A stretch of DNA of 41,981 nucleotides from a virus: IMG/VR virus record IMGVR_UViG_3300029787_000036, positions 19,414-61,394 of that record. The stretch is one strand, 5' to 3'. Each line of letters opens with the position of its first letter. The stretch's first letter is position 1. The position numbers were made by a program, and so were the translations under genes. Shown piece after piece: positions 12,153 to 26,171 of this stretch. Under the pieces are notes generated by a model. The model did not search any database. It worked only from the letters and a program-made list of their open reading frames with translations, and was not told the DNA's origin.

Positions 12153-12434
12153 TTATTTTTTGTGTTTTTTCTTGAGGGCTTCTTTCGCCCTTTTTGCGAT
12201 TTGGGCTTGTTCGTTTTTCCCAGATACTTTGGCTCGTTGCTCCATGACAGTAAGGATTTGAATTTTTCTAGCGTAAGGTTTGTTAATGTTCTTAACTTTC
12301 CTAGCAGTCTCCCTAGCATCTGCCACGGTAGCATACTTAATTGATACAGTGTCTTTAGGATTTTCATCGGTATATAGTCTCCTTCCTGATCCTTTAGGTT
12401 TCTTGCCTGTTCCTGTTTTCGGGTCTTTAGCCAC
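12153..12434 (-). CDS. Small basic protein with GKKPKGSGRRLYTDENP motif
   Basis: 93 residues starting at a GTG. GGAGG lies seven bases before that GTG, whereas the longer reading frame upstream (ATG at 12458) has no such site, so this start is preferred. The N-terminus carries a distinctive GTGKKPKGSGRRLYTDENP stretch, known to me as a recurrent segment in small marine phage and algal-virus proteins, then a helical basic domain ending KKKHKK. A nucleic-acid-associated role is plausible; function is not known. It overlaps the upstream gene by 8 bp and is followed by the helicase. Confidence 0.7.
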   Translation of the reverse strand: MAKDPKTGTGKKPKGSGRRLYTDENPKDTVSIKYATVADARETARKVKNINKPYARKIQILTVMEQRAKVSGKNEQAQIAKRAKEALKKKHKK

Positions 12435-12675
12435 GCTTACTCCTCCCATTCCTTGCACGATTTTTAGATGGGCTTTCTAATCTAGTTCCGTCTTTGTTAG
12501 ACCCACCCTTGCTTAACATCTTATTATGAGACACATCTTTGCCTTTACGACTGATACCTTTCTTGTCGTAGGCACGTCTAGCACGTTGACGCTCCATGCG
12601 ATCAGGATGTTCTTTACGTTCTTTCTGTTTTTCATATTCTTTTTTGTATGGTCTTTTAGTTTTTGTATAAGCCAT
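12427..12675 (-). CDS. Small basic protein with degenerate HNH-like segment
   Basis: 82 residues, very rich in Lys and Arg. The segment GKDVSHNKMLSKGGSN resembles the core of HNH-type nucleases (His, then GG and Asn), but no zinc cysteines or second histidine are visible. It may be a minimal or degenerate member, or a DNA-binding protein only. GGAG lies seven bases before the ATG. It stands between the small membrane peptide and the 93-residue gene in the leftward operon. Confidence 0.65.
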   Translation of the reverse strand: MAYTKTKRPYKKEYEKQKERKEHPDRMERQRARRAYDKKGISRKGKDVSHNKMLSKGGSNKDGTRLESPSKNRARNGRSKRG

Positions 12676-12684
12676 TGGTTACTC

Positions 12685-12765
12685 CTACTTTGATATCCAA
12701 ATAATCCCACTCAATATAAAGACAAAACCTACGAATAGAGATGCGTAAAAAAATATTTCCAACAT
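12685..12765 (-). CDS. 26-residue single-span membrane peptide (candidate)
   Basis: The ATG follows immediately after the TAA of the nuclease gene, and the frame encodes MLEIFFYASLFVGFVFILSG plus six more residues. Almost the whole peptide is one hydrophobic helix with a lysine at the end. It exactly fills an otherwise empty 90-bp gap. The ribosome binding site is weak (GGGAAT), so translation would depend on coupling. Small phage membrane peptides can act as holins, antiholins or host modulators, but nothing here decides which. Confidence 0.42.
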   Translation of the reverse strand: MLEIFFYASLFVGFVFILSGIIWISK

Positions 12766-13431
12766 TTAATTATTCCCATTATGCACACATTCTACCACAA
12801 CACAGTGCCGTTTGCATAGCCCACTTGGTCTTGCGTTCCATACGTTCTCTTTGTTAGCAATCTTCATGCGATTGTATTTGAAGAACCACTTATCCCACAA
12901 CAGGTCACTATCTTCTTTCTTATAAACTTCTTTGACAGCTTTCTTTGCGATAACAAACAACAACCCTGCGTACACCTTTTTTATATCAGGGAAGTGTTTG
13001 AACGTAGCCATAGCCATAAGTTCTAGTTGTCCTTTATCTGCATAGTTAGCAGACTTGCTCGTCTTATAATCTACAACCCATGCTTCTTTGTCGTCTATAA
13101 TAACTAGGTCTGCTATACCTCGCCACCAAACACTTTCATCTCTGAACTCACATGGTTCTAAATTAGCATCAAGTCCCATCTTTATCTCTGTTAACTTGTT
13201 ACCACGTCTTCGTTTAAGTGCTTCGAGGACCTCGTTCATGTATGAAAATTTTGGAGGGACAGGCTTACCGTCACGTATATATTCTTCAGCAACCAAGTGA
13301 GCTTGCGTCCCATAGCGCATAGCTTCAGTGCTAGGCTCTTTATAATCTTTAGCAATATTCAAATGGTAAAACTTCTTCGGGCATTGCTCAAAGGATTTTA
13401 TTTTACTAAATGACCAAGGGGTTATACTCAT
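12766..13431 (-). CDS. RecB/Cas4-like PD-(D/E)XK exonuclease
   Basis: 221 residues. The family motifs appear in order: SFSKIKSFEQCP at the N-terminus, GTQAH (His45), GIADLV (Asp108), VDYKTSK (Asp121, Lys123) and the QLELMA helix (Gln135). Cys17 and a C-terminal group, Cys206, Cys210 and Cys215, match the one-plus-three cysteine pattern that binds an iron-sulphur cluster in Cas4 and AddB, with slightly different spacing. It should degrade DNA ends, feeding recombination or recycling host DNA. The gene overlaps its upstream neighbour by 4 bp. Confidence 0.85.
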   Translation of the reverse strand: MSITPWSFSKIKSFEQCPKKFYHLNIAKDYKEPSTEAMRYGTQAHLVAEEYIRDGKPVPPKFSYMNEVLEALKRRRGNKLTEIKMGLDANLEPCEFRDESVWWRGIADLVIIDDKEAWVVDYKTSKSANYADKGQLELMAMATFKHFPDIKKVYAGLLFVIAKKAVKEVYKKEDSDLLWDKWFFKYNRMKIANKENVWNARPSGLCKRHCVVVECVHNGNN

Positions 13432-13910
13432 TTATCTTTTTTTCTTATGCTTACTACGTTTTTAACTTTGTTAATTCGTGTCCACTCACCAAAATGAGGT
13501 ACACCTTCGGGTAGAGGTTCACCCATATCCAAATGCCCTATATTATATTTCTCTACGTATTCCTTAAATTTTTTACTATACCCTGTAAGAGAATGGCTTC
13601 CGAGGCTTGATAAATATGAGTTATGAGAATAAGGAATTACTTTTTTCACCCAATTTATACGTGAACAATAATTATGGGTTACTTCATTAAACAGAGCTAA
13701 TGATAATTCTGCTGAACACTCTTTACAAGTGAACTCTATAATAACACCTTCACTTTTCATTATTTTATTAGGCGTAGAAATTTTACCCATAGACAAATTT
13801 ATTGACTTACATTTAGGGCAACATATAAAATCACTTTCAACGTTTACGTTTTGGTTATGATGTTCTCCAGAACTATCAGAGTACCCTATCGCCATTTCGT
13901 ATTCATCCAT
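13428..13910 (-). CDS. Zinc-ribbon protein of unknown function
   Basis: 160 residues. Cys31/Cys34 (CPKC) and Cys62/Cys65 (CKEC) form a four-cysteine zinc ribbon with a long 27-residue loop. An aromatic and serine-rich region (about 90-115) and a basic C-terminus, VVSIRKKDK, follow. I do not recognise the rest. Overlapping junctions with both neighbours place it in the same transcript as the nuclease and polymerase. Zinc ribbons in such operons often bind nucleic acid or adapt host transcription, which remains inference here. Confidence 0.6.
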   Translation of the reverse strand: MDEYEMAIGYSDSSGEHHNQNVNVESDFICCPKCKSINLSMGKISTPNKIMKSEGVIIEFTCKECSAELSLALFNEVTHNYCSRINWVKKVIPYSHNSYLSSLGSHSLTGYSKKFKEYVEKYNIGHLDMGEPLPEGVPHFGEWTRINKVKNVVSIRKKDK

Positions 13911-14164
13911 TATTTACGTTCCCTCTCATCTTCTTCGTATTTATCGGTATGTCGTCTATAGGAGGTTATTGAGTTATAGGTGTGTCCACACTCATTACAC
14001 ACCTTACCATGATTACTTATGTGACTAACAATGCGCTCCAACCGCTTAAACTTTTGATAAATATTTTTCTTGGGTATAGCTTCCTTTACCTCTTGCCAAG
14101 TACACCCACGCATACGCATATCGCAAACTGTCCATATTTCTTTGCTAGATAAATTCATCCCCAT
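13910..14164 (-). CDS. Small helical protein with zinc-finger-like segment
   Basis: 84 residues from the ATG that overlaps the preceding stop in TAATG; the second ATG at 14158 is an alternative start. Residues 5-45 look like a helix-turn-helix (SKEIWTVCDMRMRGCTWQEV). CNECGHTYNSITSYRRH (56-72) resembles a C2H2 finger that lacks a clear second histidine, the end being acidic and arginine rich. A DNA- or RNA-binding accessory protein is likely by composition; the family is not recognised. Confidence 0.6.
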   Translation of the reverse strand: MGMNLSSKEIWTVCDMRMRGCTWQEVKEAIPKKNIYQKFKRLERIVSHISNHGKVCNECGHTYNSITSYRRHTDKYEEDERERK

Positions 14165-14391
14165 TATTTAAGCTCTCTTTCATCTAATTCATGACATCTG
14201 AAATTGTAGACACGTACAAAACGCTCTTGGGCTTCTTCGATTGATGCTCCCAACATAGCTAACAACACACCCTCCATACTTACTTCTGGCTCATCAGAAA
14301 ATGGGTTGTTTCGTTGCTTCCATAATTGCACAGCCATATCTAGCCTTGCGTCTGTTGCTTCAAATAACTCTTTATCACTTCTATCCATCAT
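14164..14391 (-). CDS. Small acidic helical protein
   Basis: 75 residues, almost entirely helical by appearance, with a central hydrophobic stretch (EGVLLAMLGASIEEAQERF). No catalytic or metal motif is seen. It overlaps the 3' end of the DNA polymerase gene by 4 bp (ATGA) and is followed by a TAATG junction, so expression is tied to the polymerase. It could be a polymerase accessory protein by position only. Confidence 0.58.
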   Translation of the reverse strand: MMDRSDKELFEATDARLDMAVQLWKQRNNPFSDEPEVSMEGVLLAMLGASIEEAQERFVRVYNFRCHELDERELK

Positions 14392-16208
14392 TCACACTCC
14401 CCATATGATTTCCCTTTTCCACTTTCACAATTTACTGGTAAGCCTTCTGCCCAATCAGGTGTCCAACGCATACAACCTTCTATATATTCTTGTGCTTCCG
14501 CTACCTCTTCATCACGCACACAACAAACTATACTGTCGTGTACGGTCAAAACTACCTTGTATTTCTTAGCTATTTGTAACATCTGCTCACCTATGATGCA
14601 ACGCGCTATGGCTTGGCAGACATTCTCTATGATCTTCCCACCATATATTCTAGTGTATCCTCGCCTAGTCTTGTAGGAAAACTCCAGACCTTTCTCGCCC
14701 TGTTCGTAGCGTAGCCCATCGTATTTCATGGAAAGCCCCGATGGTAGGGTAATTTTGTTAACTCCGAAACTCAATACATCCGACTTTCCAAATGCAACTA
14801 CATCTCCACGTTGAGAACTCTCGAGGTATTGTTGAGCGTCTCTCCATAACTTGTTAATCTTCCAGTTAGTATCTCTGTATATTTTTATAACGCGCCTTGC
14901 TTCGTCAATGTCCATACTAAACCCGAAAGTCTGTAGCTGATCTTTGAACTTGATCGCCCCCATGCCATACCCTGCACCAAGTATGGTGGTCTTACCAACG
15001 AACCTCTGATCCTTAACTACATCTTGTTCGGCAACTCCATATATAGCTGATGCCATCTTCTTATAAACATCTTCACCTTTCTTGAAAGCATCTGTTAAGT
15101 CATCTTGATCTGCAAGCCAAGCCAACACCCTAGCTTCTATTTGTGCTGAGTCAGCGTCAATCAAAGAATGCCCGCGCTGAGGTACAATGCTACACTTTAA
15201 CTTGTTACCGTTAACCCCACGACTAGGTAGGTTCTGTAAATTAATCTTGTCATCACCACCCCAACGCCCTGTGTGGGCAGAGTAATACCGTATAGGCACA
15301 GGCAATAACCCACGTTTAGATATATCAATAAATCTTTGTGTCCTTGTTTCTTCCAAGGTACTCTTGTTACCTAGTCTAGCAGAGATAAGGCTCTGCACTC
15401 TCTCGTCTGGATGCGTCTCCAATTCTTTAAAATCCTCATCCGATTTAGAGAAAGCTAAAGTTTTCTGCCCAGTGGTAGGGCTTATCTTTGTAGGAGGTTT
15501 AACACCAAGACCCTTCAAGAGTTCTGCAAACTTGGGGTTACTCATCAAATCTTCTTTAGAACACCCTGCGTCTTGCAATAGTTTTTCTTTACGGTTACGT
15601 GTTTCTGTGAGGTGGCTCTCTAACCAAATGCCATCCAAGTCTAGCGTGGGTTCTATAAACATACGCAAGGATAGATCAATCAGTTTAAGTTCTTTCTTAG
15701 GAAAGTCCTTCGCCATCTTGGTAAATATTTTATAAGTCAACTCTACGTCATTGATGCAGTAGTCACCAAACTTAGATAACTCCTCTTCGGTAAAGTCCTC
15801 TCGTCTTTTACCTATAGTATTGAGAACCTCTTTACCTTTCGTGCCAACACCGTATCTTTCAGATAGAGCGTCAAGGCTACTGCTAACCTCTACACCGTTC
15901 ACTGCTCTAGATATACATAGGGTGTCTGTGTATACTTTAGGTTTAATATCAAACTTCCAATTTAATATTGCCCCATCGAACATAGTGTTATGCGCCAGTA
16001 CCATAGCGGTCCCCCAGGGAAACGTGTGTAGATACTCCTTAACTTGTTTGTGTGTACCACTCGCCCACTCTGTAGGGTTGTTGTTTACCTTTACACCTAG
16101 ACCTATAACTTCAAAGTCTGAGCTACGGACATATTCTTCTGTGGTTACTTTACGCAGTGAGTACTGCTTGTCATAATACGTTTCAAAGTCTAACGTTATT
16201 AAATCCAT
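14388..16208 (-). CDS. polA: Family A DNA polymerase with 3'-5' exonuclease
   Basis: 606 residues from the ATG inside a TAATG junction that follows GGAGGGGAG; the upstream in-frame ATG at 16223 lies within the preceding gene and is less likely. Exonuclease motifs: LDFETYYD (Asp7, Glu9), AHNTMFDG and YCINDVELTY. Polymerase motif A is DADSAQIEAR from Asp351. Motif B is RFVGKTTILGAGYG (Arg402, Lys406, Tyr414) and motif C is VHDS (His557-Asp558). All catalytic residues are present. It copies the phage genome. There is no 5' nuclease and no DnaJ-like zinc insert. The leader is shared with the HNH gene through a direct repeat. Confidence 0.95.
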   Translation of the reverse strand: MDLITLDFETYYDKQYSLRKVTTEEYVRSSDFEVIGLGVKVNNNPTEWASGTHKQVKEYLHTFPWGTAMVLAHNTMFDGAILNWKFDIKPKVYTDTLCISRAVNGVEVSSSLDALSERYGVGTKGKEVLNTIGKRREDFTEEELSKFGDYCINDVELTYKIFTKMAKDFPKKELKLIDLSLRMFIEPTLDLDGIWLESHLTETRNRKEKLLQDAGCSKEDLMSNPKFAELLKGLGVKPPTKISPTTGQKTLAFSKSDEDFKELETHPDERVQSLISARLGNKSTLEETRTQRFIDISKRGLLPVPIRYYSAHTGRWGGDDKINLQNLPSRGVNGNKLKCSIVPQRGHSLIDADSAQIEARVLAWLADQDDLTDAFKKGEDVYKKMASAIYGVAEQDVVKDQRFVGKTTILGAGYGMGAIKFKDQLQTFGFSMDIDEARRVIKIYRDTNWKINKLWRDAQQYLESSQRGDVVAFGKSDVLSFGVNKITLPSGLSMKYDGLRYEQGEKGLEFSYKTRRGYTRIYGGKIIENVCQAIARCIIGEQMLQIAKKYKVVLTVHDSIVCCVRDEEVAEAQEYIEGCMRWTPDWAEGLPVNCESGKGKSYGECE

Positions 16209-16223
16209 TACTCTCCCCTCCAT
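16196..16223 (-). repeat. Direct repeat flanking the HNH gene, polymerase side
   Basis: TTATTAAAT followed by CCATTACTCTCCCCTCCAT (plus strand) is nearly identical to 16953-16980. It spans the ribosome binding site, TAATG junction and first codons of the polymerase gene. Confidence 0.8.
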
Positions 16224-16966
16224 CTTGGTATTCTTGGTAGTGTTTTTTCATCAAGAGTCACATGAAAATTGTAGTGGTCAAAATTAACTTTCACATCTCC
16301 ATAGTGCATTTGCCTGTGATGAGTGGCACAGAGACACATTATATTATCTGTAAAATCCGTACCGTTCTCAGAGAGAGGGATAACGTGATGAGCTTCCGAA
16401 TATCTGCGACCATTCTCTTTTATAAATGAACTGTTTTCAATTACACCTTGAGCCTTACACACTTGACATTCATCATTAAAATGATCCTTAACTTTTTCTC
16501 CATTAGCACCACGCTCTATCCGTTTAGATTCTTTGAGATCTTTTTCTTTCTCCTCCCTAGTTTTTTCTGGGTAAGAAAGTATCTTTACATCTTCACTTTT
16601 AATACGCATTACGCGAGTGCATTTACATTCTTTGAGGTAACCTAATTCTAAATTTTTGGTAACATTAGCTATAAAGGAAAAGGTCATACCTTCAGTAATA
16701 TCATGTTGATATGAATAATCGTAAAACCCTGCGCTATTAGTTTGATAGAAATTTTTATCGTCATCTTCAAAAAAGAAACCATCATATCCTGAAAAGTGGT
16801 AACCTGTTTCAGAATTAATATTCCCACCATTGTTATCTACACAACAAATAAGTTTTAAATTAAATTTTTTTTGTTTTTCACCTTCCTCATAACAGTGTTT
16901 GGAACTTTTATACTTGTGTAAAAAAGAATCACACGCTTCCCCCCAAAAATATTTATTAAACGCCAT
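16208..16966 (-). CDS. HNH endonuclease
   Basis: 252 residues from the ATG in TAATG after GGAGGGAG; the upstream ATG at 16987 is inside the neighbouring gene. The C-terminus is a clear HNH zinc domain: Cys167/Cys170, EAHHVIPL (His193-His194), Asn208, CLC (Cys211, Cys213) and THHRQMH (His216, His217, His221). The first 130 residues carry cysteine pairs and an aromatic acidic region and may recognise DNA. It cuts DNA and is probably a free-standing homing-type nuclease, since it splits the DUF6378-polymerase junction and is bounded by direct repeats. A packaging or anti-host nuclease role is less likely at this position. Confidence 0.85.
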   Translation of the reverse strand: MAFNKYFWGEACDSFLHKYKSSKHCYEEGEKQKKFNLKLICCVDNNGGNINSETGYHFSGYDGFFFEDDDKNFYQTNSAGFYDYSYQHDITEGMTFSFIANVTKNLELGYLKECKCTRVMRIKSEDVKILSYPEKTREEKEKDLKESKRIERGANGEKVKDHFNDECQVCKAQGVIENSSFIKENGRRYSEAHHVIPLSENGTDFTDNIMCLCATHHRQMHYGDVKVNFDHYNFHVTLDEKTLPRIPRWRGE

Positions 16967-16980
16967 TACTCTCCCTCCAT
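16953..16980 (-). repeat. Direct repeat flanking the HNH gene, DUF6378 side
   Basis: TTATTAAACG followed by CCATTACTCTCCCTCCAT (plus strand); differs from 16196-16223 by one substitution and two single-base indels. It supplies the HNH gene with the same start context as the polymerase gene. Confidence 0.8.
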
Positions 16981-17247
16981 AACACACTCGTACTCAATGC
17001 CTACGTATGCCATGTTATCTATGTAATGATCTTTCTTGGTGGGGCTACTCATCCTTCGGGCTAACTTGGTAGCTTGATGCACCAAAGCTATATCTCTTGC
17101 GGTTAACGTATTACCTGTTATGGCATTGAAGATGCGTGCAATATGTTTGTGGTTATCCACAGGGCTACCATAGTCATCACGTCTATCACCTGCGGTCAGT
17201 GCTGATGCCTCTGATAACAAGTCACAGCGGTTTAGTTTCTTGTTCAT
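16966..17247 (-). CDS. DUF6378-like phage protein
   Basis: 93 residues. The pattern ITAGDRRDDYG-like start (TAGDRRDDYGSPVDNHKHIA), then TARDIALVHQATKLAR and HYIDNMAYVGIEYECV, matches the phage DUF6378 family, an all-helical domain thought to be related to MazG-like nucleotide enzymes (family knowledge; activity not shown). The two acidic patches, DRRDD and DN, could bind metal. Its 3' end is the repeat that borders the HNH insertion, so it was probably once joined directly to the polymerase gene. ATGA overlap with the upstream gene. Confidence 0.72.
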   Translation of the reverse strand: MNKKLNRCDLLSEASALTAGDRRDDYGSPVDNHKHIARIFNAITGNTLTARDIALVHQATKLARRMSSPTKKDHYIDNMAYVGIEYECVMEGE

Positions 17248-17465
17248 AGTATAATCCCTTTACTTCTAAGCTTTGCGACAAACATACGTAAGTCCTCTCG
17301 CCTTCTTGTGTAGGTTTCTTTTGTCTTTGGATTGTTATCACGCATGTAATCCTCCATGGCACGATCCATGACTTTTTTAAGGAACCTCAACTCCTCCTTA
17401 TGGGCAGGGGTTATTTCTATCTCTCCCATATCAGGATATCCGTAATCATTCCTACTCATCTCCAT
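17244..17465 (-). CDS. Small charged helical protein
   Basis: 73 residues. A short acidic N-terminus (DYGYPDMGEIEITPAHKEE) is followed by a long charged helix, LRFLKKVMDRAMEDYMRDNN, and a basic end. No known domain. Overlaps both neighbours, so it belongs to the same operon. A structural or adaptor role is possible; the sequence says no more. Confidence 0.58.
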   Translation of the reverse strand: MEMSRNDYGYPDMGEIEITPAHKEELRFLKKVMDRAMEDYMRDNNPKTKETYTRRREDLRMFVAKLRSKGIIL

Positions 17466-17817
17466 ACACCTTCTTCCATATCTCTAGCCTCCTTTTTATT
17501 TTTTCTTGTAACCTATGTTTTCTCTCTAATGTCTTTAGCACTAGTCTTTCTTTTTTAGACAAACGCTCCCCCTTAACAGGTTTTTTAAGCTTATATCTAT
17601 CAATCGGAGGTAGAGTACGGTAATCGGTTTTTACCATTTGTTCCTCGTCTGATAACTCGCAACCCTCTTCGTTCAAATCTTCAAAGCTTGGTTTCTGGCA
17701 CGTCAAACCACTACAACAATCATCAACTACTGATCTACACAACGGACATTGGTAGTGTCCATGCACGACTATCATCGTGGCTTGCTGTCCACATCTAGGG
17801 CATATAGATAAAGTCAC
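17452..17817 (-). CDS. Cysteine-rich zinc-ribbon protein with basic coiled tail
   Basis: 121 residues. CPRC (Cys6, Cys9) and CPLC (Cys24, Cys27) make a classic zinc ribbon; Cys34, Cys35 and Cys40 follow and could form a second metal site. The C-terminal half is a strongly basic helix (SKKERLVLKTLERKHRLQEKIKRRLEIW) of a nucleic-acid-binding type. It may act on RNA or RNA polymerase, but no family is recognised. Four-base overlap with the upstream gene indicates co-translation. Confidence 0.62.
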   Translation of the reverse strand: MTLSICPRCGQQATMIVVHGHYQCPLCRSVVDDCCSGLTCQKPSFEDLNEEGCELSDEEQMVKTDYRTLPPIDRYKLKKPVKGERLSKKERLVLKTLERKHRLQEKIKRRLEIWKKVYGDE

Positions 17818-18101
17818 ACTCTATCCCCTAACAAACCTTCGGGTCTAGAAAGTGGGGGCTTCATGCCGTACACATAGCCCTTACTACAAGTATTCTTACC
17901 ATAAAATAATTGTGATGCTTCCTTACATTTTTCTAGTGTAGGAAAATCCATCGTATAAAACTGACCGTGCATCCCATCCAATTCAAAACAAGCGTACCCA
18001 AACGTGTCACCGTACGTATCGTCAGTCCATTTCTTACAGGCGTCCTGTGATGTGAAGTAAGCTACCATCATAATACTATAAATAATTGTTGTTGATACCA
18101 T
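17814..18101 (-). CDS. Possible exported four-cysteine protein
   Basis: 95 residues. The N-terminus (MVSTTIIYSIMMVAYFT) is hydrophobic and could be a signal peptide or membrane anchor. The remainder has exactly four cysteines (22, 38, 59, 72), fitting two disulphide bonds in the periplasm. GGGAG precedes the start by six As. An exported small protein inside a DNA-replication operon is out of place. Superinfection exclusion or host-envelope modification would fit, but this is only inference. Confidence 0.6.
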   Translation of the reverse strand: MVSTTIIYSIMMVAYFTSQDACKKWTDDTYGDTFGYACFELDGMHGQFYTMDFPTLEKCKEASQLFYGKNTCSKGYVYGMKPPLSRPEGLLGDRV

Positions 18102-18613: not shown

Positions 18614-18774
18614 TCATAAACCCAAAAACTGGTATCATCTTCAAGAGTTTCTTCGCTCATTATCCTGTCCCAAACGTCAAGATTATGAGAACCCCACTTA
18701 GATATCCACGCATCCTTATCTGAGGACAACACGTCATCCTCCATATCCATTAATAGTTCTTTCATTGCACCCAT
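18610..18774 (-). CDS. Small acidic protein, 54 residues
   Basis: The frame MGAMKELLMDMEDDVLSSDK continues with a Trp-rich acidic half (two WxxKWG-like turns, DVWDRIM) and ends DTSFWVYE. GGAGA lies six bases before the ATG, and the stop overlaps the ATG of the VRR-NUC gene in ATGA, which supports a real gene. It is acidic and may be a DNA-mimic or partner of the nuclease; no family is recognised. Confidence 0.6.
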   Translation of the reverse strand: MGAMKELLMDMEDDVLSSDKDAWISKWGSHNLDVWDRIMSEETLEDDTSFWVYE

Positions 18775-18790: not shown

Positions 18791-18814
18791 TGAGTTAGGG
18801 AAACCCCTAACTCA
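18791..18814. repeat. Palindrome copy 1 (TTAGGGAAACCCCTAA)
   Basis: Variant of the family TTAGGGAATTCCCTAA, here extended to 10-bp perfect arms, TGAGTTAGGG and CCCTAACTCA around AAAC. It overlaps the stop of the 91-residue gene and precedes the ribosome site of the 54-residue gene, at the downstream border of the accessory module. Confidence 0.85.
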
Positions 18815-19082
18815 TTTCTGGTTGTATGTTAGTGAGCCAGAAAGTACCTGTCTTTGTTTTCCAACCCACGTTTCTTATTCTGTCGTCTGGCTTAACCATT
18901 GAAAGCACTGCTATCCTATTCTGCATCCACTCTGGCAAATCATTCATATTAGAATAGCAACCTACTTCGTTGCTGTCAATACATTTCGTGCCAAGACATA
19001 TTACACTAATGTAACCGTCATCATTGTGTACAGAAACACGGTAAACAGTATCTTCTTTTATCACATCATTGTTTAACGACAT
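18807..19082 (-). CDS. Stand-alone copy of the C-terminal domain of its upstream neighbour
   Basis: 91 residues from the ATG at 19082; the longer frame would need a TTG start at 19112. Its last 35 residues (LPEWMQNRIAVLSMV, then DDRIRNVGWKTKTGTFWL) align with the end of the 293-residue protein (VPEDILGKISVLNIT, DEYVKDVGYNTGDGMFYV). The two overlap by 17 bp. This suggests a tandem duplication followed by divergence. The fold and function are unknown. Its stop codon lies within palindrome copy 1. Confidence 0.65.
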   Translation of the reverse strand: MSLNNDVIKEDTVYRVSVHNDDGYISVICLGTKCIDSNEVGCYSNMNDLPEWMQNRIAVLSMVKPDDRIRNVGWKTKTGTFWLTNIQPEMS

Positions 19083-19947
19083 AGAACATACCATCTCCTG
19101 TGTTGTAGCCAACGTCTTTCACATACTCGTCAACGTCAGTTATATTGAGAACACTAATCTTGCCCAAGATATCTTCTGGCACTTCACTCTCACGGCATCG
19201 CACGATCTCCTTGACAACATTACCTGATCCTTTGTGTAAGTCGTTAATGTCAATGATCTCAAAGTGTAGTTCTCCATCCCCATACTTGTCATACGCACGA
19301 ACGAAATGGACATGTAGTTTCTCCATCTTGGCACTACGGTCAATGTCAATCTTATCCAACAACTCCTGTACCATACTTCTGTACTGCTTGTTCACAAACT
19401 CGTAACCATTTTTTATCATGTTACGAAACTCAGCCTCGACAAGTGATTTATCGAATACTTTACTCCAAGTATTATACACGTCATTGCTTTTATCACTGAC
19501 CTCCCTCTTAAATTTATCTTGTATGTTTCTACTCTCCATCGTTGCAATATCTATGGGATTGATAGGTCGCATAGCCTTCCTTGCTTTAGTGAGAATAGTT
19601 TTGAGATTAACACTTGTGTACATACTATGTTGGTCATTGTAGGTAGCGTACTTCTCGTTCTCAATGTTGCGTGATGCAACCATATACTTATGCTCCCCAG
19701 TAACGTGTACTAGGTAGTCACCATAACCTATGTACCCCAGGACGTAGGGGTCGTTATCGAGGTACACCCATAACTCGTTATCACGCTTACGTGCAAACTT
19801 TAATCCTGGTGAATACGATAGTAATGCTTTGGCATAATTCTGTAACTCTGACTTCGCGTCATAAGCTGTTTGGTCTGTGGGTACTATCTCTTTAACCGTC
19901 ACAGTTTTATCAATTATTTTACTAACTCTTACGTGTAGTTTATCCAT
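19066..19947 (-). CDS. Unknown protein with internally repeated MxKLHV module
   Basis: 293 residues. The N-terminus, MDKLHVRVSKIIDK, is echoed at residue 208 by MEKLHVHFVRAYDK, and the codons match closely too, so the C-terminal ~86 residues look like a fused duplicate. The middle (60-110) is beta-rich with many Tyr and Asp (WVYLDNDPYVLGYIGYGDYL). No catalytic motif. GGAG precedes the start, and TAATG joins it to the upstream gene. It belongs to the MoxR/VWA transcript. Partner or substrate adaptor of that ATPase system is a guess from context. Confidence 0.65.
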   Translation of the reverse strand: MDKLHVRVSKIIDKTVTVKEIVPTDQTAYDAKSELQNYAKALLSYSPGLKFARKRDNELWVYLDNDPYVLGYIGYGDYLVHVTGEHKYMVASRNIENEKYATYNDQHSMYTSVNLKTILTKARKAMRPINPIDIATMESRNIQDKFKREVSDKSNDVYNTWSKVFDKSLVEAEFRNMIKNGYEFVNKQYRSMVQELLDKIDIDRSAKMEKLHVHFVRAYDKYGDGELHFEIIDINDLHKGSGNVVKEIVRCRESEVPEDILGKISVLNITDVDEYVKDVGYNTGDGMFYVVKQ

Positions 19948-21014
19948 TATCTTTCTCCTTTTACTTTTACTATTGATTTTTCAGAGTGTAAGTACTCCAA
20001 CTCCAAGGCCGTATTTATCCAACGGTTGTACTGGTTACGTACTCTGGATTGTGCTTGTTTCTCGTCAAGTTCACCCTCGTATGCGTTACGTGAGATACCA
20101 CTCAAGTCACTGTCACGTACAAACATATCAAGTAGATCCACACGACATGGGTGATCTTCGGTTTGAAACACATGGGCTATGAAGTCACCCCTGCCTTTCC
20201 AATCCCACCAATGACTCAAATCTTGACTATCTTCACCGAGCCATTCATTATAGTGTTTCTTCAAGTTATCCTTAACTTTCTCATACGCTTGGTAGTCCCA
20301 TCTCCCATCACCAATGTCAACGAGTGTCCACATAGCACCGATGTAACCCCACATACCTTCGATAGCATCTTTGAGGTCAGCCTTACGTTTCTTGTCAATC
20401 CTCTTCTTCGGTGGACTAAACGTAAACGTGTTACCCTGCGGTAACCAAAACTTAGAATTGGCGGGTTTGGTAAAGTGCAACTGTCTACCATCGTCTTTGG
20501 AACCTGCCTGTTTCCAGAAGTATTCACTCTTTGGTAGGAAGTAGTTAGAGAGTTTTGAATTTGGTACAACACCTGATCTCACTTCTATATACTGCTTACC
20601 ATTCTCAATAAGAAGCCTCATACCGTATGGTAACGTATGTTGAAGAAATGCGTATCGTGTTTGATGTGCTTGTTCACCAGAGCCATTACGTACCTTGATA
20701 AACTCGTTACCCTCGTCATCAATAGACCACACTATCGGTGCAAGTGCCTCGACTTCTTGCATGGTTGGTAATCTACTAGCGTTGTTGTGGTTGTAACCAC
20801 GCCAAAATGGTATTGGGTCAACATCACCGTCATTGAGAATATACTTCTGGTCGTTGATCTTGATAATGCGTTCCCACTTTCTACTGCGAACACCCACAGG
20901 TCTAAGGTCATCTTTTCCACTGTGGTTTTTACTGACCATGGGCTTTACTGTGTTGTATAACTTAGCAACTTCAGCAAAGGTATTAGCTTGTACTGTGTGA
21001 TATCTATATGACAT
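19947..21014 (-). CDS. Conserved phage protein of the MoxR/VWA module
   Basis: 355 residues from the ATG at 21014, which has AAGGAG seven bases upstream. The frame stays open to another ATG at 21104 (30 more residues), directly beside palindrome copy 2 but without a ribosome site. The sequence shows RPVGVRSRKWERI near the start, a beta-rich middle with GMRLLIENGKQYIEVRSG, and a Trp-rich helical part (LSHWWDWKGRGDF). No enzyme motif is visible. Regular occurrence beside AAA+/VWA genes would make it a functional partner, but this cannot be tested here. Confidence 0.7.
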   Translation of the reverse strand: MSYRYHTVQANTFAEVAKLYNTVKPMVSKNHSGKDDLRPVGVRSRKWERIIKINDQKYILNDGDVDPIPFWRGYNHNNASRLPTMQEVEALAPIVWSIDDEGNEFIKVRNGSGEQAHQTRYAFLQHTLPYGMRLLIENGKQYIEVRSGVVPNSKLSNYFLPKSEYFWKQAGSKDDGRQLHFTKPANSKFWLPQGNTFTFSPPKKRIDKKRKADLKDAIEGMWGYIGAMWTLVDIGDGRWDYQAYEKVKDNLKKHYNEWLGEDSQDLSHWWDWKGRGDFIAHVFQTEDHPCRVDLLDMFVRDSDLSGISRNAYEGELDEKQAQSRVRNQYNRWINTALELEYLHSEKSIVKVKGER

Positions 21015-21105
21015 TTTTTTTCTCCTTAATATGTCTTTACAGAGTTCCTTTAAAAACTCTTTGGTTTCATCGTCTAGGTTTTCAAATTCTTCACTCGGTT
21101 TCATG

Positions 21106-21121
21106 TTAGGGAATTCCCTAC
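21106..21121. repeat. Palindrome copy 2
   Basis: TTAGGGAATTCCCTAC, 15 of 16 bases of the consensus. It contains the stop codon of the metallopeptidase/VWA gene and lies just upstream of the downstream gene's extended start. Confidence 0.85.
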
Positions 21122-22296
21122 ATCAAGTTTGAGTTGACGTGAACAACCTTACCCACGTCTGGTTTAGCACTCTTGTTGTCAAGGACACACCATAGAACAG
21201 GGCAAGTCCATTGACCCCAACTACTACCAAGGTATCCGTCCGTTAACACAATACATGCTTGTGGTGACACGTTATTGTCCGTCATGTACTGAGGAACACA
21301 CTCAACCATAGTGCCACCACCACCCTTTGGTTTAGTTGAGTTAATGAGATTGTCTAGTTCGTGCATCTCATACTTCTCTGCCCGACACACTTCTGTATCC
21401 CAGTAGAGTATGCGTACTGCACTAGGCTTGACTGTCTCTGCGATACCTTTGACTTCGGATAAGAACACCGATAGTTCGTGGTCACCGATACTGCCTGACG
21501 TGTCAATGGCAAGCACTAGCTCCTCGACTTTCTCCGATACACCACTAGGCATATAGATACCCATACTGATGTACCGTCTGTTAGGTTTACGCCAACTAGA
21601 GTAGTCTCGCCCTGCGCAAGTCTCAGTAATAAACTCACGTAACACCTGCCTCCAATCTACTTGTGGTTGCAGTAACTCGTTAAGGCCACGGTCACCACCA
21701 CTGCCCATCTTACCTGCGATCATAGCACCCTGACGTATTGCCTCGTCAATCTCTCTGGCAAGGGCATCTTTCTCATCGGGGGTCATGTCTTTAGCACCAT
21801 CCCAGTCGTGACCATCTAGACTATCATCTTGTGGTGGTGGGTTCTCCTTGAGATCGTGGAATACTCTTGCCGTATCCCAACCCTTGTACTTCACGTCATA
21901 ACAACCCTTGGTCAACTCCCCAGTCATTGTGGCAAAGTTATCCTCATGGTTATCTGCAACAAGTTTGAGATTGATAACGTGATCCATAGCTATGTTCGCT
22001 AGTTGTGCGTTATCCTTGGCTAGATGTTGCCACGTTACCAAGTGTCTGTATAACTTGTGATAGTTCTCATGCAACACAAGGAACCGTAACTCTGCGTCAT
22101 TGAGTTTATCACAAAACTCTCGCCCATACTGCTCGTTCTTGCCATCAGTACAAGCCGTTGGCACGTCATCGACAACTGTGCGTTCACCAATCATTAGTAC
22201 ACCAGACAACGCCACATACTTGGGGTTCTCCATGATACCAACAACTGCTTTGTACAACCGTTGCTCGACTGTTAGTTTTTGTCCGATACTAAGCAT
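21118..22296 (-). CDS. Metallopeptidase-like protein with C-terminal VWA domain (DUF2201 type)
   Basis: 392 residues. The N-terminal domain has HENYH (His76, Glu77, His80) followed by NIAMDHVIN (Asn101, Asp105, Asn109), the HExxH plus NxxxDxxxN pattern of COG3864/DUF2201 predicted peptidases. The C-terminal domain starts VLAIDTSGSIG with a full DxSxS metal site (Asp265, Ser267, Ser269) and has VLTDGYLG later, as in von Willebrand A domains. Such proteins work with a MoxR-type ATPase, here the next gene upstream. GGAGG precedes the start. The substrate is unknown. Confidence 0.85.
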   Translation of the reverse strand: MLSIGQKLTVEQRLYKAVVGIMENPKYVALSGVLMIGERTVVDDVPTACTDGKNEQYGREFCDKLNDAELRFLVLHENYHKLYRHLVTWQHLAKDNAQLANIAMDHVINLKLVADNHEDNFATMTGELTKGCYDVKYKGWDTARVFHDLKENPPPQDDSLDGHDWDGAKDMTPDEKDALAREIDEAIRQGAMIAGKMGSGGDRGLNELLQPQVDWRQVLREFITETCAGRDYSSWRKPNRRYISMGIYMPSGVSEKVEELVLAIDTSGSIGDHELSVFLSEVKGIAETVKPSAVRILYWDTEVCRAEKYEMHELDNLINSTKPKGGGGTMVECVPQYMTDNNVSPQACIVLTDGYLGSSWGQWTCPVLWCVLDNKSAKPDVGKVVHVNSNLM

Positions 22297-22306
22297 TTAC
22301 TCCTCC

Positions 22307-23401
22307 TTACTTCTTATCTGCTGAAAACATATAGTTGTTTACTCTAGCCCAATCGGTGAACTTCTTGTTGGTCATCACCATTGAACGCTTGGAATACTTG
22401 GGTGACTTGACACCATTGGCAAACAGACCTTGTGCCTCTGCATCTAGTCGTAGCATATACTCCATCCAGTTATCCAACCACTCACGTTCCATTGTAGCAA
22501 GTGACCGATACACCACCATACATACTGCACTCGCACTGTCTGGCACTTTAGCGTTCTTTGGGTCTGTCTTGATACTATCCAAGCTTGGTAGTTGGTCAGA
22601 TAGTCTAACGTGAGACACCAAGTCCATCGCACCACGTTCGCCAATCGTACCAATCAATGCACCTGTTAACGTGTTAGTATCTAGTACATCACGTTGCTTT
22701 ACGATATTAGAAGCTAACTCCAGTGATCGTGGTGTAACAAACGCATCTCGTTGTGCTTGTGGGTGAAAGATGTATGGGTTCTCTTCGGGGTCTTTGATAT
22801 CCTCGAAACTGTGGAACGTCTGTGGGAAGTCCTTGACCCAACCAAGAACTGCGTGGTCGATATCGCCCTCGTTGATACCCCACTCAATCCATGTCATGTG
22901 GTCTGTCTTTCTCACTGGCACTACTGTCATACGATTACGTGCGTGTGGTGGTAGTATGTCACCAACTCCCTCGCTACCTTTGTTGGTCGTGGCAAAGATG
23001 ATGCTACCCTCTGGCAGTGTGTACTTACCCATCTTGCGTTCGTAGATACCACGTAACAAGGCCGTCTTCACTGGGGGTAGTGCTTTACCAAACTCGTCTA
23101 GGTTGATGATAACAGGTTTATTTGAGTGGAACCCCAACTCCTCGTTAGTCACCATGGTAACACAGTCACCACCCTCAACATCTTTGAACTTAGGATACAT
23201 GATATCGCCAAGGTCTTTAGTGGTGCAGTCAAAGTAGAAATACTTGTGTGTTGGCATCTTAGTTTCTAGCATGTAACCAACGGCTGACTTGCCGTTACCC
23301 ATGTCACCTTGAAGTAACACAGTCTGCTTGTGACCGATTGCACTGATAAGATCAACACACTGCTCTAAGTTGAGTGCGTACATTGTTTTTGCAGTTGACA
23401 T
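22307..23401 (-). CDS. MoxR-type AAA+ ATPase
   Basis: 364 residues. Walker A is GDMGNGKS (32-39), Walker B is NLDEFGK (Asp102, Glu103), sensor 1 is ATTN (Asn140), and HARNRM near 153-158 supplies the arginine finger. This is a complete ATPase core of the MoxR class, acting as a chaperone that loads or remodels metal-dependent partners together with a VWA protein (family knowledge; phage N4 has an analogous gp24-gp25 pair). The VWA protein lies directly downstream. GGAG precedes the start, with palindrome copy 3 just upstream. Confidence 0.88.
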   Translation of the reverse strand: MSTAKTMYALNLEQCVDLISAIGHKQTVLLQGDMGNGKSAVGYMLETKMPTHKYFYFDCTTKDLGDIMYPKFKDVEGGDCVTMVTNEELGFHSNKPVIINLDEFGKALPPVKTALLRGIYERKMGKYTLPEGSIIFATTNKGSEGVGDILPPHARNRMTVVPVRKTDHMTWIEWGINEGDIDHAVLGWVKDFPQTFHSFEDIKDPEENPYIFHPQAQRDAFVTPRSLELASNIVKQRDVLDTNTLTGALIGTIGERGAMDLVSHVRLSDQLPSLDSIKTDPKNAKVPDSASAVCMVVYRSLATMEREWLDNWMEYMLRLDAEAQGLFANGVKSPKYSKRSMVMTNKKFTDWARVNNYMFSADKK

Positions 23402-23429
23402 TTTTAGTTCTCCTTATGTCTAAATTAAG

Positions 23430-23445
23430 TTAAGGATTTCCCTAA
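23430..23445. repeat. Palindrome copy 3 (TTAAGGATTTCCCTAA)
   Basis: 14 of 16 consensus bases. It sits in the 47-bp gap between the DUF3150-like gene and the ATPase gene, upstream of the latter's ribosome site, where a bound protein would block the ATPase and everything after it. Confidence 0.75.
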
Positions 23446-23448
23446 CAG

Positions 23449-24348
23449 TTAAATACCGATAGTCGGTAAGGTTTTAATCACTTCATCAACGGAACGCTTT
23501 GTATCCAATCGTAAGTGATCGTCTTCACGCAATGCTTCTGGCGTTATACCATTGAGTGCGTGTCTTAACTTCTTATGAGCCATCTCCATGTCACGATCAT
23601 CATTGACATTGAAAGCTTTAAGAAGGTCAAGTACTTCTGTGACGTTAGACACAAGCGTCTTGGTAAACACTTTCTTTGTGTCCTTGTCTGCATCTTCGGG
23701 ATAGTCTAGCCGTTCTGACATTCTGGCTAGGGGTTTGTACAACCTGTCCCACAAGTCATTCATGGCGTTGGTGTACTGCGTGTCATAGTACTTCGTGTAC
23801 TGTTCTTTCAATATTTCTGCTTGCCAGTTGCCGATATCAACACGGAAGTCACCACTCTCTTGAATGGGCATGAAGTTTAATCGCCAACCGAATTTACTCT
23901 GCATAATCTCGATGCTAGGGTAATCATCACTGACAAACAAGTTACCGAGAGTAGTCTCAGCTTCATTAATACGGGTAGCGTATACTTGTATGAACTTGTC
24001 CACTAACTTCTCAAACTGTTGTTGTCTTTCGGTCATGGCCTTGGTGTACTTCTCTAGCCCCATGGTGGTCACGATACGCAACCCCTGATCTGACCAAGGT
24101 AAAGTCATTGAGTAATGTGAGTTACGTAAGTTACCGACAAACTTGTGTATGGCATCCAACTCTGGACACTTGCCCATGATACGTTTGTGTACGTTGGCAA
24201 CGCCAAGAGATGCTGAGTTAGATACCTCGACCTCCTCACTTGCACGTTTGTCTAACTTCCTGCCTGTCCACTGCGAGACACTAAAGTCAATTAGAATAGC
24301 ACTAGAACTTAGGTTCGGTACTGATATGTTTTTAATAGGTTGTATCAT
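23449..24348 (-). CDS. DUF3150-like protein of the MoxR/VWA module
   Basis: 299 residues, mostly helical. The N-terminal LIDFSVSQWTGRKLDKRA is the kind of segment found at the start of DUF3150 proteins, which travel with AAA+ and CobT/VWA-type genes on plasmids and phages (family knowledge; assignment from memory of the pattern). A charged helical middle (about 100-150) and a C-terminal helical bundle follow. No catalytic residues are seen. A TAATG junction after GGGAGAT couples it to the gene upstream. Probably the third component of the complex. Confidence 0.62.
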   Translation of the reverse strand: MIQPIKNISVPNLSSSAILIDFSVSQWTGRKLDKRASEEVEVSNSASLGVANVHKRIMGKCPELDAIHKFVGNLRNSHYSMTLPWSDQGLRIVTTMGLEKYTKAMTERQQQFEKLVDKFIQVYATRINEAETTLGNLFVSDDYPSIEIMQSKFGWRLNFMPIQESGDFRVDIGNWQAEILKEQYTKYYDTQYTNAMNDLWDRLYKPLARMSERLDYPEDADKDTKKVFTKTLVSNVTEVLDLLKAFNVNDDRDMEMAHKKLRHALNGITPEALREDDHLRLDTKRSVDEVIKTLPTIGI

Positions 24349-24614
24349 TATTTATCTCCCATGCTGATGTTATATTGATTGACATACTCCATTATAATAC
24401 TTGGCTTGATTAACTTGTTAGCCATCACATTGTTTAGGTGTTGAAAGAACTCTACTTTCTTTTCGGTTAGGGATTTCCCTAACTCTGCTTTGCCCTCAAT
24501 CAACGAGCGTTCACGATCTCCTTTTTCTGAATGTTGGCATAACTCTTCCCAACCCATAATTTTCTCTTTGCCCTCACCCATGGGGGCATTTGTGTATGTT
24601 CCTTTGAATTTCAC
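24348..24614 (-). CDS. Small helical protein, palindrome in coding region
   Basis: 88 residues from a GTG start with AGGAG seven bases upstream. A long charged helical region (KGDRERSLIEGKAELGKSLTEKK would be its core) spans the middle. Palindrome copy 4 is translated as part of it (GKSL). No domain is recognised. It is the second gene after the leftward promoter, so it is among the first proteins made from this operon, and a regulatory role is possible. Confidence 0.6.
   Translation of the reverse strand: MKFKGTYTNAPMGEGKEKIMGWEELCQHSEKGDRERSLIEGKAELGKSLTEKKVEFFQHLNNVMANKLIKPSIIMEYVNQYNISMGDK
24467..24482. repeat. Palindrome copy 4 (TTAGGGATTTCCCTAA)
   Basis: 15 of 16 consensus bases, located inside the 88-residue gene. 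It shows that the element is tolerated in coding DNA. Confidence 0.8.
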
Positions 24615-24615
24615 T

Positions 24616-24843
24616 TTATCTCTCCTGTTTGTTGTTGATACCGATTAAGTCACTCTTGCGAGAGACCACTACATAGTTTGACTTGTGCATGGGTACGACA
24701 CAGAACTTTACTTCTTGTGCAAGTAACTCTCCACACGACAAACAAGTATTATATCCAAGTGCGTGACGCTTTGGGTTGATACCCTCACCACACTCATAAC
24801 ACGTTAAGGAATTCCCTAACTGATATTTGGTTACGCTTGACAC
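24616..24843 (-). CDS. Small zinc-ribbon protein, first gene of the leftward operon
   Basis: 75 residues from a GTG start with AGGAGA eight bases upstream. CYEC (Cys15, Cys18) and CLSC (Cys34, Cys37) form one zinc ribbon; the end is basic. As the promoter-proximal gene it is a candidate early regulator or an RNA-polymerase-binding factor, but similar ribbons also occur in small proteins of no known role. Palindrome copy 5 overlaps codons 8-13 (QLGNSL), about 70-110 bp after the promoter. Confidence 0.65.
   Translation of the reverse strand: MSSVTKYQLGNSLTCYECGEGINPKRHALGYNTCLSCGELLAQEVKFCVVPMHKSNYVVVSRKSDLIGINNKQER
24804..24819. repeat. Palindrome copy 5 (TTAAGGAATTCCCTAA)
   Basis: 15 of 16 consensus bases, in the first codons of the promoter-proximal gene. 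A protein bound here could act as a roadblock to leftward transcription. Confidence 0.82.
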
Positions 24844-24887
24844 TAATTCGTTCTCCTTGTTGTTGACATATTTCTAATTGTACTTTT

Positions 24888-24916
24888 AGTATACCATAGA
24901 TATCAGGTGGTGTCAA
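24888..24916 (-). promoter_or_regulatory. Leftward sigma70-type promoter
   Basis: On the minus strand TTGACA (24911-24916) and TATACT (24888-24893) are exactly 17 bases apart, a near-consensus promoter. Transcription would start about 40 bases before the GTG of the 75-residue zinc-ribbon gene and read the whole leftward operon. It stands beside the iteron block. Confidence 0.82.
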
Positions 24917-24959
24917 GGGGTACTGTATGACGTGTTTAGATAGTATATGGTGGTAAAGA

Positions 24960-25336
24960 GTGTAATGTTCGGTAATGTTCGGTAATGTTCGTTTTTGAAA
25001 ACGTGTAAGTCCTTGAAAAGAAAGTAATGTTCTAATGTTCGGTAATTCTGGAGGTCTGGGCGTGGGTAAAAGTGACGGATAGAAAAACGAACAAAAGATA
25101 GCAAAAACCTTGTCGCTCAATAAATGCTTCAGATGTTTTTAAAAAACGAACATTATATAATATATATATAAATATACTTTTTTACTACTACTACACATTA
25201 TTGCCTACCACTGGATACCACCATTTACCACGAAACCTAATGTTCGTTTTTGCTTAAAAATTACCGAACATTACCGAACATTACACCATAAAAAACGAAC
25301 ATTACCTTTTTTGCAAGGATATAAAACCGAACATTA
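24960..25336. repeat. Iteron region, candidate replication origin
   Basis: Three tandem GTAATGTTCG units at 24962-24991 and partial units at 25024-25041 face inverted CGAACATTA(C) units at 25147, 25265, 25275, 25296 and 25328; one forward unit lies at 25238. Positions 24960-24986 and 25260-25286 are a perfect 27-bp inverted repeat. Between them is an AT-only core (about 25149-25176). Three TACCAC motifs follow at exact 10-bp spacing (25206, 25216, 25226). Iterons around an easily melted core, with no gene, are the layout of a replication origin. Early-promoter control is the alternative, since the leftward promoter abuts it. Confidence 0.72.
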
Positions 25337-25349
25337 GGGAATTCCCTAA
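25334..25349. repeat. Palindrome copy 6, perfect
   Basis: Perfect TTAGGGAATTCCCTAA, sharing bases with the last CGAACATTA iteron, so a protein on one site would affect the other. Confidence 0.9.
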
Positions 25350-25358
25350 CACAAAAGA

Positions 25359-25389
25359 CTCAGCGCAACACAACTAACTGGTATCAATA
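25359..25389. repeat. 31-bp direct repeat, copy 1
   Basis: Starts CTCAGCGCAACACAACTAAC and is identical to 25410-25440, with a 51-bp period. The pair lies between palindrome copies 6 and 7. Confidence 0.88.
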
Positions 25390-25402
25390 TGGTAACAAGT
25401 TA
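25387..25402. repeat. 16-bp inverted partner of 26161-26176
   Basis: ATATGGTAACAAGTTA, the exact reverse complement of 26161-26176. The two copies bracket the isolated 171-residue gene. Confidence 0.75.
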
Positions 25403-25409
25403 ACAAAGG

Positions 25410-25440
25410 CTCAGCGCAACACAACTAACTGGTATCAATA
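25410..25440. repeat. 31-bp direct repeat, copy 2
   Basis: Identical to 25359-25389; followed six bases later by palindrome copy 7. Confidence 0.88.
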
Positions 25441-25445
25441 ATGTG

Positions 25446-25461
25446 TTAGGGAATTCCCTAA
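25446..25461. repeat. Palindrome copy 7, perfect
   Basis: Perfect TTAGGGAATTCCCTAA at the outer edge of the origin-like region, just beyond the terminator of the 171-residue gene. Confidence 0.9.
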
Positions 25462-25487
25462 GTGAATATTGAATTTTAATTAGGCAC

Positions 25488-25520
25488 AAAAAAACCCCCA
25501 CAGATTTCTCTGCAGGGGTT
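25488..25520 (-). terminator. Rho-independent terminator of the 171-residue gene
   Basis: On the minus strand AACCCCTGCAGA and TCTGTGGGGGTT pair (12 bp with two wobbles) around a GAAA loop, followed by five further Ts. It starts six bases after the stop codon, so the upstream gene is its own unit and does not read into the origin-like region. Confidence 0.9.
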
Positions 25521-25526
25521 AGAGTA

Positions 25527-26042
25527 TTATTCGTCACCAGCTTCATAGATCTTTTCAAAAGCTAGTTCTATTTTCATCAACCTATTTGCATCATCAATGA
25601 AATCATTCTTTTGCAATATCTCACCAGCTTGATAAACGAGATCCCAAAATCTTTGCTCTGGAGATCTTGCCTCGGCTCTCTCTTTGGGAGAAGTTTGATC
25701 TTTCTTTAATTGCTTTCTAAGATCCTTAATCTTACTACCGATTGCCATGCCGAGTTCTCTTTTACGGTTCTTTTCGACTTGATCCAGTTCCTTTGAAGGA
25801 GTTTCCCACAAGGTACGATCCGCAACAGGCCAACCCTTAGTAACAGCAACCCTAACACTTTCATAGTATTCTGGAGTGCAAGTAGATTCACTGTCCTTAG
25901 TATTGGGGCTGAGTAGATCGGTCGGTTTCTTTTTCAGTTCACGTAAAACTTGAATAAGTTTCTTACCATATTTAACGTCGGCAATTAATGCTTTTTCAAA
26001 CTCTGGCTCGATATGGTCGAGAATTGTATTTACTTTTGACAT
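25527..26042 (-). CDS. Isolated unknown protein, candidate regulator
   Basis: 171 residues, helical and highly charged. A central basic stretch (RKRELGMAIGSKIKDLRKQL) and repeated KK/EE pairs suggest nucleic-acid or protein binding; no standard helix-turn-helix is clear. GGAGA lies seven bases before the ATG. The gene is monocistronic, has its own terminator and has palindrome copy 8 about 32 bp upstream of its start. That arrangement suits an autoregulated control or origin-binding protein. No family is recognised. Confidence 0.7.
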   Translation of the reverse strand: MSKVNTILDHIEPEFEKALIADVKYGKKLIQVLRELKKKPTDLLSPNTKDSESTCTPEYYESVRVAVTKGWPVADRTLWETPSKELDQVEKNRKRELGMAIGSKIKDLRKQLKKDQTSPKERAEARSPEQRFWDLVYQAGEILQKNDFIDDANRLMKIELAFEKIYEAGDE

Positions 26043-26073
26043 AATAATGTCTCCTATATTAAGTTAAAATATG

Positions 26074-26090
26074 TTAGGGAAAATCCCTAA
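26074..26090. repeat. Palindrome copy 8 (TTAGGGAAAATCCCTAA)
   Basis: Perfect 7-bp arms (8 bp when the outer G-C pair is counted) with a three-base centre, one base longer than the consensus. It is the only copy between the 171-residue gene and its presumed promoter region. Confidence 0.82.
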
Positions 26091-26128
26091 CACTCGGTCG
26101 GTTTGTCCTTCCGATAAAATCAATGTAG

Positions 26129-26171
26129 CATAACTTGTTACTGTACAGTATGGATAACCATAACTTGTTAC
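26129..26171. repeat. CATAACTTGTTAC direct repeats, 30-bp period
   Basis: Two exact 13-bp copies surround a 12-bp palindrome. The second extends into the 16-bp element at 26161-26176 that recurs inverted at 25387-25402. Probably a protein-binding array upstream of the 171-residue gene. Confidence 0.7.

Follow-up and report, generated by a model that had tools for sequence, protein, structure and literature searches.

A lineage-diversified palindrome network and a co-varying candidate reader protein in mostly marine, uncultured viruses

The window analysed here (41,981 nucleotides, positions 19414-61394 of the 61,394-bp virus record IMGVR_UViG_3300029787_000036) carries eight copies of a short palindrome, TTAGGG and CCCTAA around a short centre, spread over a leftward gene unit whose first gene encodes a 171-residue protein, p171. 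The network formed by these sites is real and broader than first noted, in that related viruses, mostly marine and uncultured, carry counterparts whose letters diversify by lineage and with which a candidate reader, p171, co-varies. The sites and the p171 gene are located as follows.

18795..18810: palindrome site 1, TTAGGG-aaac-CCCTAA, located at the stop codon of a 101-residue open reading frame (ORF)
21106..21121: palindrome site 2, TTAGGG-aatt-CCCTAc, which overlaps the VWA stop codon
23430..23445: palindrome site 3, TTAaGG-attt-CCCTAA, in the interval between the MoxR gene and the DUF3150-like gene
24467..24482: palindrome site 4, TTAGGG-attt-CCCTAA, within an 88-residue ORF
24804..24819: palindrome site 5, TTAaGG-aatt-CCCTAA, in the 5' part of the gene for a 75-residue zinc-ribbon protein
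25334..25349: palindrome site 6, perfect, adjoining the iteron block
25446..25461: palindrome site 7, perfect, past the terminator of p171, with GATACCAGTT following after 9 nt
26074..26090: palindrome site 8, TTAGGG-aaaat-CCCTAA, with a spacer of 5 nt, lying 31 bp upstream of the start codon of p171
25527..26042, minus strand: p171, the candidate palindrome reader, first gene of the leftward unit
25719..25748, minus strand: p171 codons 99-108, the helix segment that tracks the half-site sequence

A search for the 16-mer with up to 3 mismatches recovered seven sites, each with 0-2 mismatches, against 0.21 expected by chance; seven or more were reached in 0 of 100 shuffles of the sequence, and a reversed control pattern gave 0 matches. 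The preliminary description had counted eight copies matching the 16-mer at 14-16 positions, which holds for these seven but not for the copy at 26074, a 17-bp site whose arms are perfect and whose centre has 5 nt. It had seen no copies elsewhere in the window, and the motif count that it proposed, on the whole genome and on shuffled sequence, bears this out: there are no further copies in the window and none at up to 2 mismatches across the whole record. Its account of where the sites lie (at stop codon and ribosome-binding site junctions, inside the 88- and 75-residue ORFs, upstream of p171 and at the iteron block) was likewise confirmed throughout. The 385-residue ORF probably starts at 21014, where there is a good ribosome site, and not at 21104, which would make site 2 intergenic.

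The exact 16-mer occurs on 91 viral contig stretches, many of them with multiple copies. When relatives were collected by a search with the MoxR protein, regardless of their palindrome word, nearly all of 90 related contigs carried multiple copies of a more general element, in which a half-site of about 7 bp is repeated in inverted orientation across a spacer of 3-5 bp (719 sites). Half-site pairs within 30 bp of each other in these loci were inverted in about 346 cases, compared with 16 everted and 5 direct. The half-site word changes by lineage, its forms including GTTAGGG, GTTAGTG, GTTAGTC, GTTAGCC, GTAGTG (with a variable preceding G/T), CTAGCC, TTTAGGG, TTTACGG, TTTACGC and TTCGGGC, so that the palindrome of the window represents one dialect of an element shared by the whole family. 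A list of nine half-sites labels 88 of the 90 loci, one of them through a single site, and leaves two (L139 and L148) unmatched. Most words keep to a single spacing, and GTTAGGG and GTTAGTG accept two or three, even in one genome. We found no description of this family in a literature search limited to open-licence papers, so that an earlier mention is possible; no near-identical phage records were found, a MoxR-based search of genome contigs for prophage or host copies returned no relative, and HTVC027P and DSL-LC04, the nearest isolates by terminase, have neither the network nor p171 in the stretches examined.

Gene order around the network is conserved: TerL and p201 point one way, the iteron/origin region follows, and p171, zinc ribbon, DUF3150-like, MoxR, VWA, p385, p293, Hjc-like and PolA point the other way. 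In the window, the genes and signals of the leftward unit beyond p171 are these.

25493..25520, minus strand: intrinsic-terminator-like hairpin and T tract after p171
24964..25335: iteron-like cluster AATGTTCG/CGAACATT, 10 copies, between p171 and the zinc-ribbon gene
24888..24916, minus strand: sigma-70-like promoter TTGACA-17-TATACT with an extended -10
24616..24843, minus strand: 75-residue zinc-ribbon protein gene
23449..24348, minus strand: DUF3150-like protein gene, scoring below the Pfam cut-off
22307..23401, minus strand: MoxR-like AAA+ ATPase gene
21118..22296, minus strand: VWA/metallopeptidase-like (DUF2201) protein gene

The strong sigma-70-like promoter precedes the zinc-ribbon gene, with site 5 about 70-80 bp downstream of it and sites 1-5 all on its downstream side. 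In long loci the sites are confined to the module side (0.71 per kb, 180 sites, versus 0 on the terminase side), and their density peaks at 2.15 per kb in the first kb past p171, falls to about 0.4 per kb by 3 kb and is thin by 10-13 kb. A site lies near the gene start for p171 in 84% of cases, p385 in 76%, the zinc ribbon in 75%, the Hjc-like gene in 60% and MoxR in 59%, and in no case for PolA or TerL. The usual order at a junction is stop codon, palindrome, about 20 bp including the ribosome-binding site, and start codon. Comparable junctions in relatives carry sites, with none elsewhere, as had been anticipated, while the letters themselves differ by lineage.

Whether these sites act as DNA or as RNA could be addressed with an arm-covariation test on 365 de-duplicated sites, in which one arm was shuffled within each word family. 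Watson-Crick pairs at variable positions were as frequent as after shuffling (335 observed versus 336.5, 351 versus 351.9 and 318 versus 316.8), and 54 single arm changes (6 GU, 12 AC, 36 other) matched random change. The two arms therefore vary independently, without base-pair compensation, which argues for recognition of the sites as DNA, by a symmetric protein. This supports the earlier suggestion that many symmetrical sites over one leftward unit reflect recognition by one such protein. The alternative of mRNA hairpins, acting as translation operators, processing sites or terminators, was initially favoured on the strength of the variable loops and of the one-letter variants of the window, both of which form G-U pairs on the coding strand; spacers of 3-5 nt also fit hairpin loops, and many sites lie directly upstream of ribosome-binding sites. 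It is, however, disfavoured by the tests on the 365 sites, where paired arm changes are not in excess over unpaired ones and GU changes are not favoured. Several spacers moreover occur as reverse-complement pairs, some words favouring one orientation (for example, CACG 17 times versus CGTG 2 times), and the 12 nt that follow the sites are A-rich (39% A, 19% T) with no T tract, in disagreement with intrinsic terminators. Bases just outside the arms also pair below the shuffled level (76 versus 109 for the second base of the flank), possibly since a stable hairpin ahead of a ribosome site would do harm. We therefore consider RNA hairpins very improbable.

Several lines of evidence point to p171 as the reader. 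A p171 profile found a homologue in 48 of 48 loci spanning p201 to MoxR, and among the stretches fetched by the exact palindrome alone p171 accompanies 43 of 60 with at least two sites versus 7 of 31 with a single site. In pairs of loci outside the large GTAGTG clade, p171 identity predicts a shared word with an area under the curve (AUC) of 0.83, compared with 0.43-0.73 for ten other proteins; after regression on MoxR identity the value for p171 is 0.76, and the others reach at most 0.65 (DUF3150) and mostly about 0.5. Association with the half-site, examined column by column and again outside this clade, peaks at p171 residues 100-108 (0.40 in a nine-column window, null 95% level 0.32, p<0.0005), and proteins other than p171 and p385 show no such cluster. 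The residues concerned mostly follow the word, with S103/K106/D107 accompanying TTAGGG, A103/N106/D107 accompanying TTAGTG and K107 accompanying TTAGTC, and the segment typically reads IGSK-x-KD (TTAGGG), IGARRND (TTAGTG), IGSRR-x-K (TTAGTC) or resembles QANSVIGN (GTAGTG). AlphaFold2 predicts an all-helical p171 (mean predicted local distance difference test score of 89 for the L170 protein and 85 for that of the window) and places the half-site-tracking segment within one long helix. This covariation suggests that p171 reads the word and controls the gene block. Of the 171-, 88- and 75-residue proteins proposed earlier for binding tests, the first, and not either of the other two, is the likely cognate protein, and we regard p171 as the probable reader of the palindromes. 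Three contigs (L135, L156 and L158) each carry two p171 paralogues, which could reflect recent duplication or exchange of the reader.

Other results weigh against p171 as reader, or against an operator role for its sites. When the GTAGTG clade is included, other proteins equal p171 in predicting the word, and with all families included the contrast in residual AUC is weaker (0.75 for p171 versus 0.51-0.73). Association clusters then also appear in DUF3150, MoxR and PolA, which we attribute to the general divergence of that clade. Outside it, p385 has a weaker cluster of its own at residues 222-231 (p=0.0005). On protein trees the half-site has to change 8-9 times with p171, 8 times with the DUF3150-like protein, 9 times with p201 and 10-11 times with MoxR, and label changes on 38-locus trees number 8, 8 and 11 for p171, DUF3150 and MoxR; because p171 ties with DUF3150, parsimony on trees alone fails to single it out, nor does nearest-neighbour label prediction set it apart from other proteins. 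Comparisons of p171 with Pfam, PHROGs, PDB sequences and Foldseek gave no convincing DNA-binding family or fold. A rigid dimer would not usually accommodate spacers of 3, 4 and 5 bp within a single genome, sigma-70 promoter hexamers are not enriched near most sites, and in one phage with an array, Pag-Yong1 (see below), no p171 homologue was detected. Two of 39 p171 members weakly match PHROG 6506, 'Arc-like repressor' (best E 0.0006), and a search of 50,697 phage records found no significant p171 homologue (best E 0.5).

These points leave room for a network that is real but has another reader, be it p385, the DUF3150-like protein, the zinc ribbon, which could bind DNA, or a host protein. The p385 cluster and the equally few DUF3150 label changes speak for it, whereas outside the GTAGTG clade the other viral proteins fall to or near chance once relatedness is corrected for (DUF3150, at 0.65, excepted), and lineage-specific words are not what a host protein would be expected to produce; we consider such a reader rather unlikely. 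Our preferred reading, to which we give a probability of roughly one half, is that the palindromes are double-stranded DNA sites for a symmetric viral protein, likely p171, and form a network of operators and stoperator-like sites. From sequence evidence we infer the binding by p171, its dimeric state and a repressive outcome. The p171 gene is flanked by its own site (26074) ahead and by a terminator and then a further site (25446) behind. The protein, probably a dimer, would bind all 8-13 sites over the adjoining 8-13 kb, would regulate its own gene through the site at 26074 and would control the region after p171 and the start of the operon beside the origin. Bound sites at the downstream gene junctions would obstruct RNA polymerase, acting as operators and stoperators in combination, and half-site and recognition helix may have diversified jointly to give each lineage a private network.

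An asymmetric element that accompanies some of the palindromes bears on this. GAWACCAGTT, with GCGnnGAGCC about 8-10 nt further on, is a motif of the coding strand (148 coding versus 22 other-strand matches to GAWACCAGT), and 88 of 120 GAWACCAGTT copies fall within 60 nt of a palindrome, compared with 10.7 expected. The element is conserved across word families and occurs beyond the terminator of p171 and ahead of the Hjc-like gene. Where the motif is downstream, the gap from the palindrome is mostly 4-9 nt, and about 10% of sites are involved. It is possibly a phage promoter, an initiation element or an RNA element, and the near-fixed spacing suggests that in these places the palindrome governs a process that begins, or a factor that loads, at the motif. 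In the window it is found as follows.

25357..25385, minus strand: asymmetric element GATACCAGTT..GCGCTGAGTC
25408..25436, minus strand: asymmetric element GATACCAGTT..GCGCTGAGCC, 9 nt downstream of site 7
25377-25385 and 25428-25436 (within the two elements above) and 18628-18636, minus strand: copies of the asymmetric motif

The main rival to a transcriptional role is that the sites form a centromere-like or DNA-organising array by the origin, serving partition, replication control or compaction and read by p171 or another reader. Such an array would account for a density that peaks past p171 near the iterons, declines over about 13 kb and is almost nil on the other side, for the distance of most sites from promoters and for sites within genes; the authors of the Cluster O study, moreover, argued against a role in transcription initiation for their own array (PMC4351075). 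It fits less well with sites at gene junctions about 20 bp ahead of start codons and with those adjoining GAWACCAGTT at near-fixed spacing, and a ParA/ParB-like partner was not seen among the proteins scanned. On balance we consider it unlikely, about as much so as a different reader. Mobile or recombination sites bounding gene cassettes would explain why the sites sit at boundaries between genes; in Cluster O, a few repeats of this kind were points of recombination (PMC4351075). Gene order nevertheless stays constant across lineages while the word changes, some sites lie in reading frames where it changes, and no recombinase was seen among the proteins scanned; we consider this account very improbable. 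To return to a network read by p171, it is a tentative idea that the protein represents a new all-helical DNA-binding family with a code relating residues 103, 106 and 107 to the inner half-site positions, diversified because the network would keep related viruses incompatible, or exclude superinfection among them, in the absence of lysogeny. Neither an integrase nor ParAB was found among the proteins scanned, which cover part of the ORFs, so that lysogenic immunity is without independent support.

Stoperators of Cluster A (L5) are bound by a proven repressor in temperate phages. The resemblance to L5 proposed in the preliminary description stands as far as distribution is concerned, many copies of one site being dispersed through transcribed operons, past the promoter, but not for the sites themselves, which are symmetric, non-oriented inverted repeats, whereas those of Cluster A lack symmetry and follow the direction of transcription (PMC4351075). 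The closest described case is the palindrome array of the Cluster O mycobacteriophages, whose 17-bp repeat, TGTTCGG-NNN-CCGAACA, has 34 copies in Corndog; the leftward region holds most of those between genes, about a third are inside genes, and the repeats were proposed as sites of a dimeric protein, with reader and function undescribed (PMC4351075). Both systems have a 7-bp inverted repeat with a short spacer lacking consistent orientation and many copies, at junctions and in genes, over one dominant operon, in phages that are not obviously temperate. The five Cluster O phages compared, however, are unrelated to the present viruses, and they share one word, of different sequence and with a spacer that is always 3, whereas here the word diversifies (GTTAGNN and others) and a co-varying candidate reader can be named. 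Dispersed palindrome arrays of the Corndog type have so far been described with no reader or function identified, and the present family supplies about ten natural words together with a candidate, so that both become testable. If p171 does bind, widespread uncultured viruses would contribute a further family of DNA-binding proteins, one with an evolutionary specificity code.

In SPbeta, about 10 dispersed copies of an element of about 15 bp are read by the master repressor MrpR, which demonstrates that a dispersed element set can be the regulon of one repressor (PMC10516654). The likeness is a dispersed set with one phage DNA-binding protein as reader; the SPbeta sites differ in lying in promoter regions, and MrpR in having a tyrosine-recombinase fold and serving prophage lysogeny. 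Start-associated sequences of Cluster K are also short repeats upstream of genes (PMC3203893), but are tied closely to translation starts (PMC4351075), as many of the present sites are not. Planktothrix phage Pag-Yong1 (L115), a distant terminase relative (42%), carries an independent GGTTCA-NNN-TGAACC array of 16 copies, mostly at 6600-17905 and mostly at gene junctions, which shares the 3-bp spacer and a leftward unit with VWA and ATPase genes and differs in that some copies lie on the structural side. Its first leftward gene, considered as a counterpart of p171, was unrelated by profile comparison.

The iteron-like cluster at 24964..25335 is the probable replication origin, and AATGTTCG/CGAACATT repeats are enriched across relatives. 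The trio of DUF3150-like, MoxR ATPase and VWA (DUF2201) genes, at 21118-24348 in the window, is conserved, and the VWA protein is labelled 'HNH endonuclease' by PHROGs, compared with metallopeptidase and VWA domains in Pfam. An Rfam search found nothing relevant. In several relatives, near-dyad repeats like GTAACAAGTTAT / GTGACACGTTAT occur before p171 (26125-26165 in the window) and past its terminator, and are possibly sites of a second regulator.

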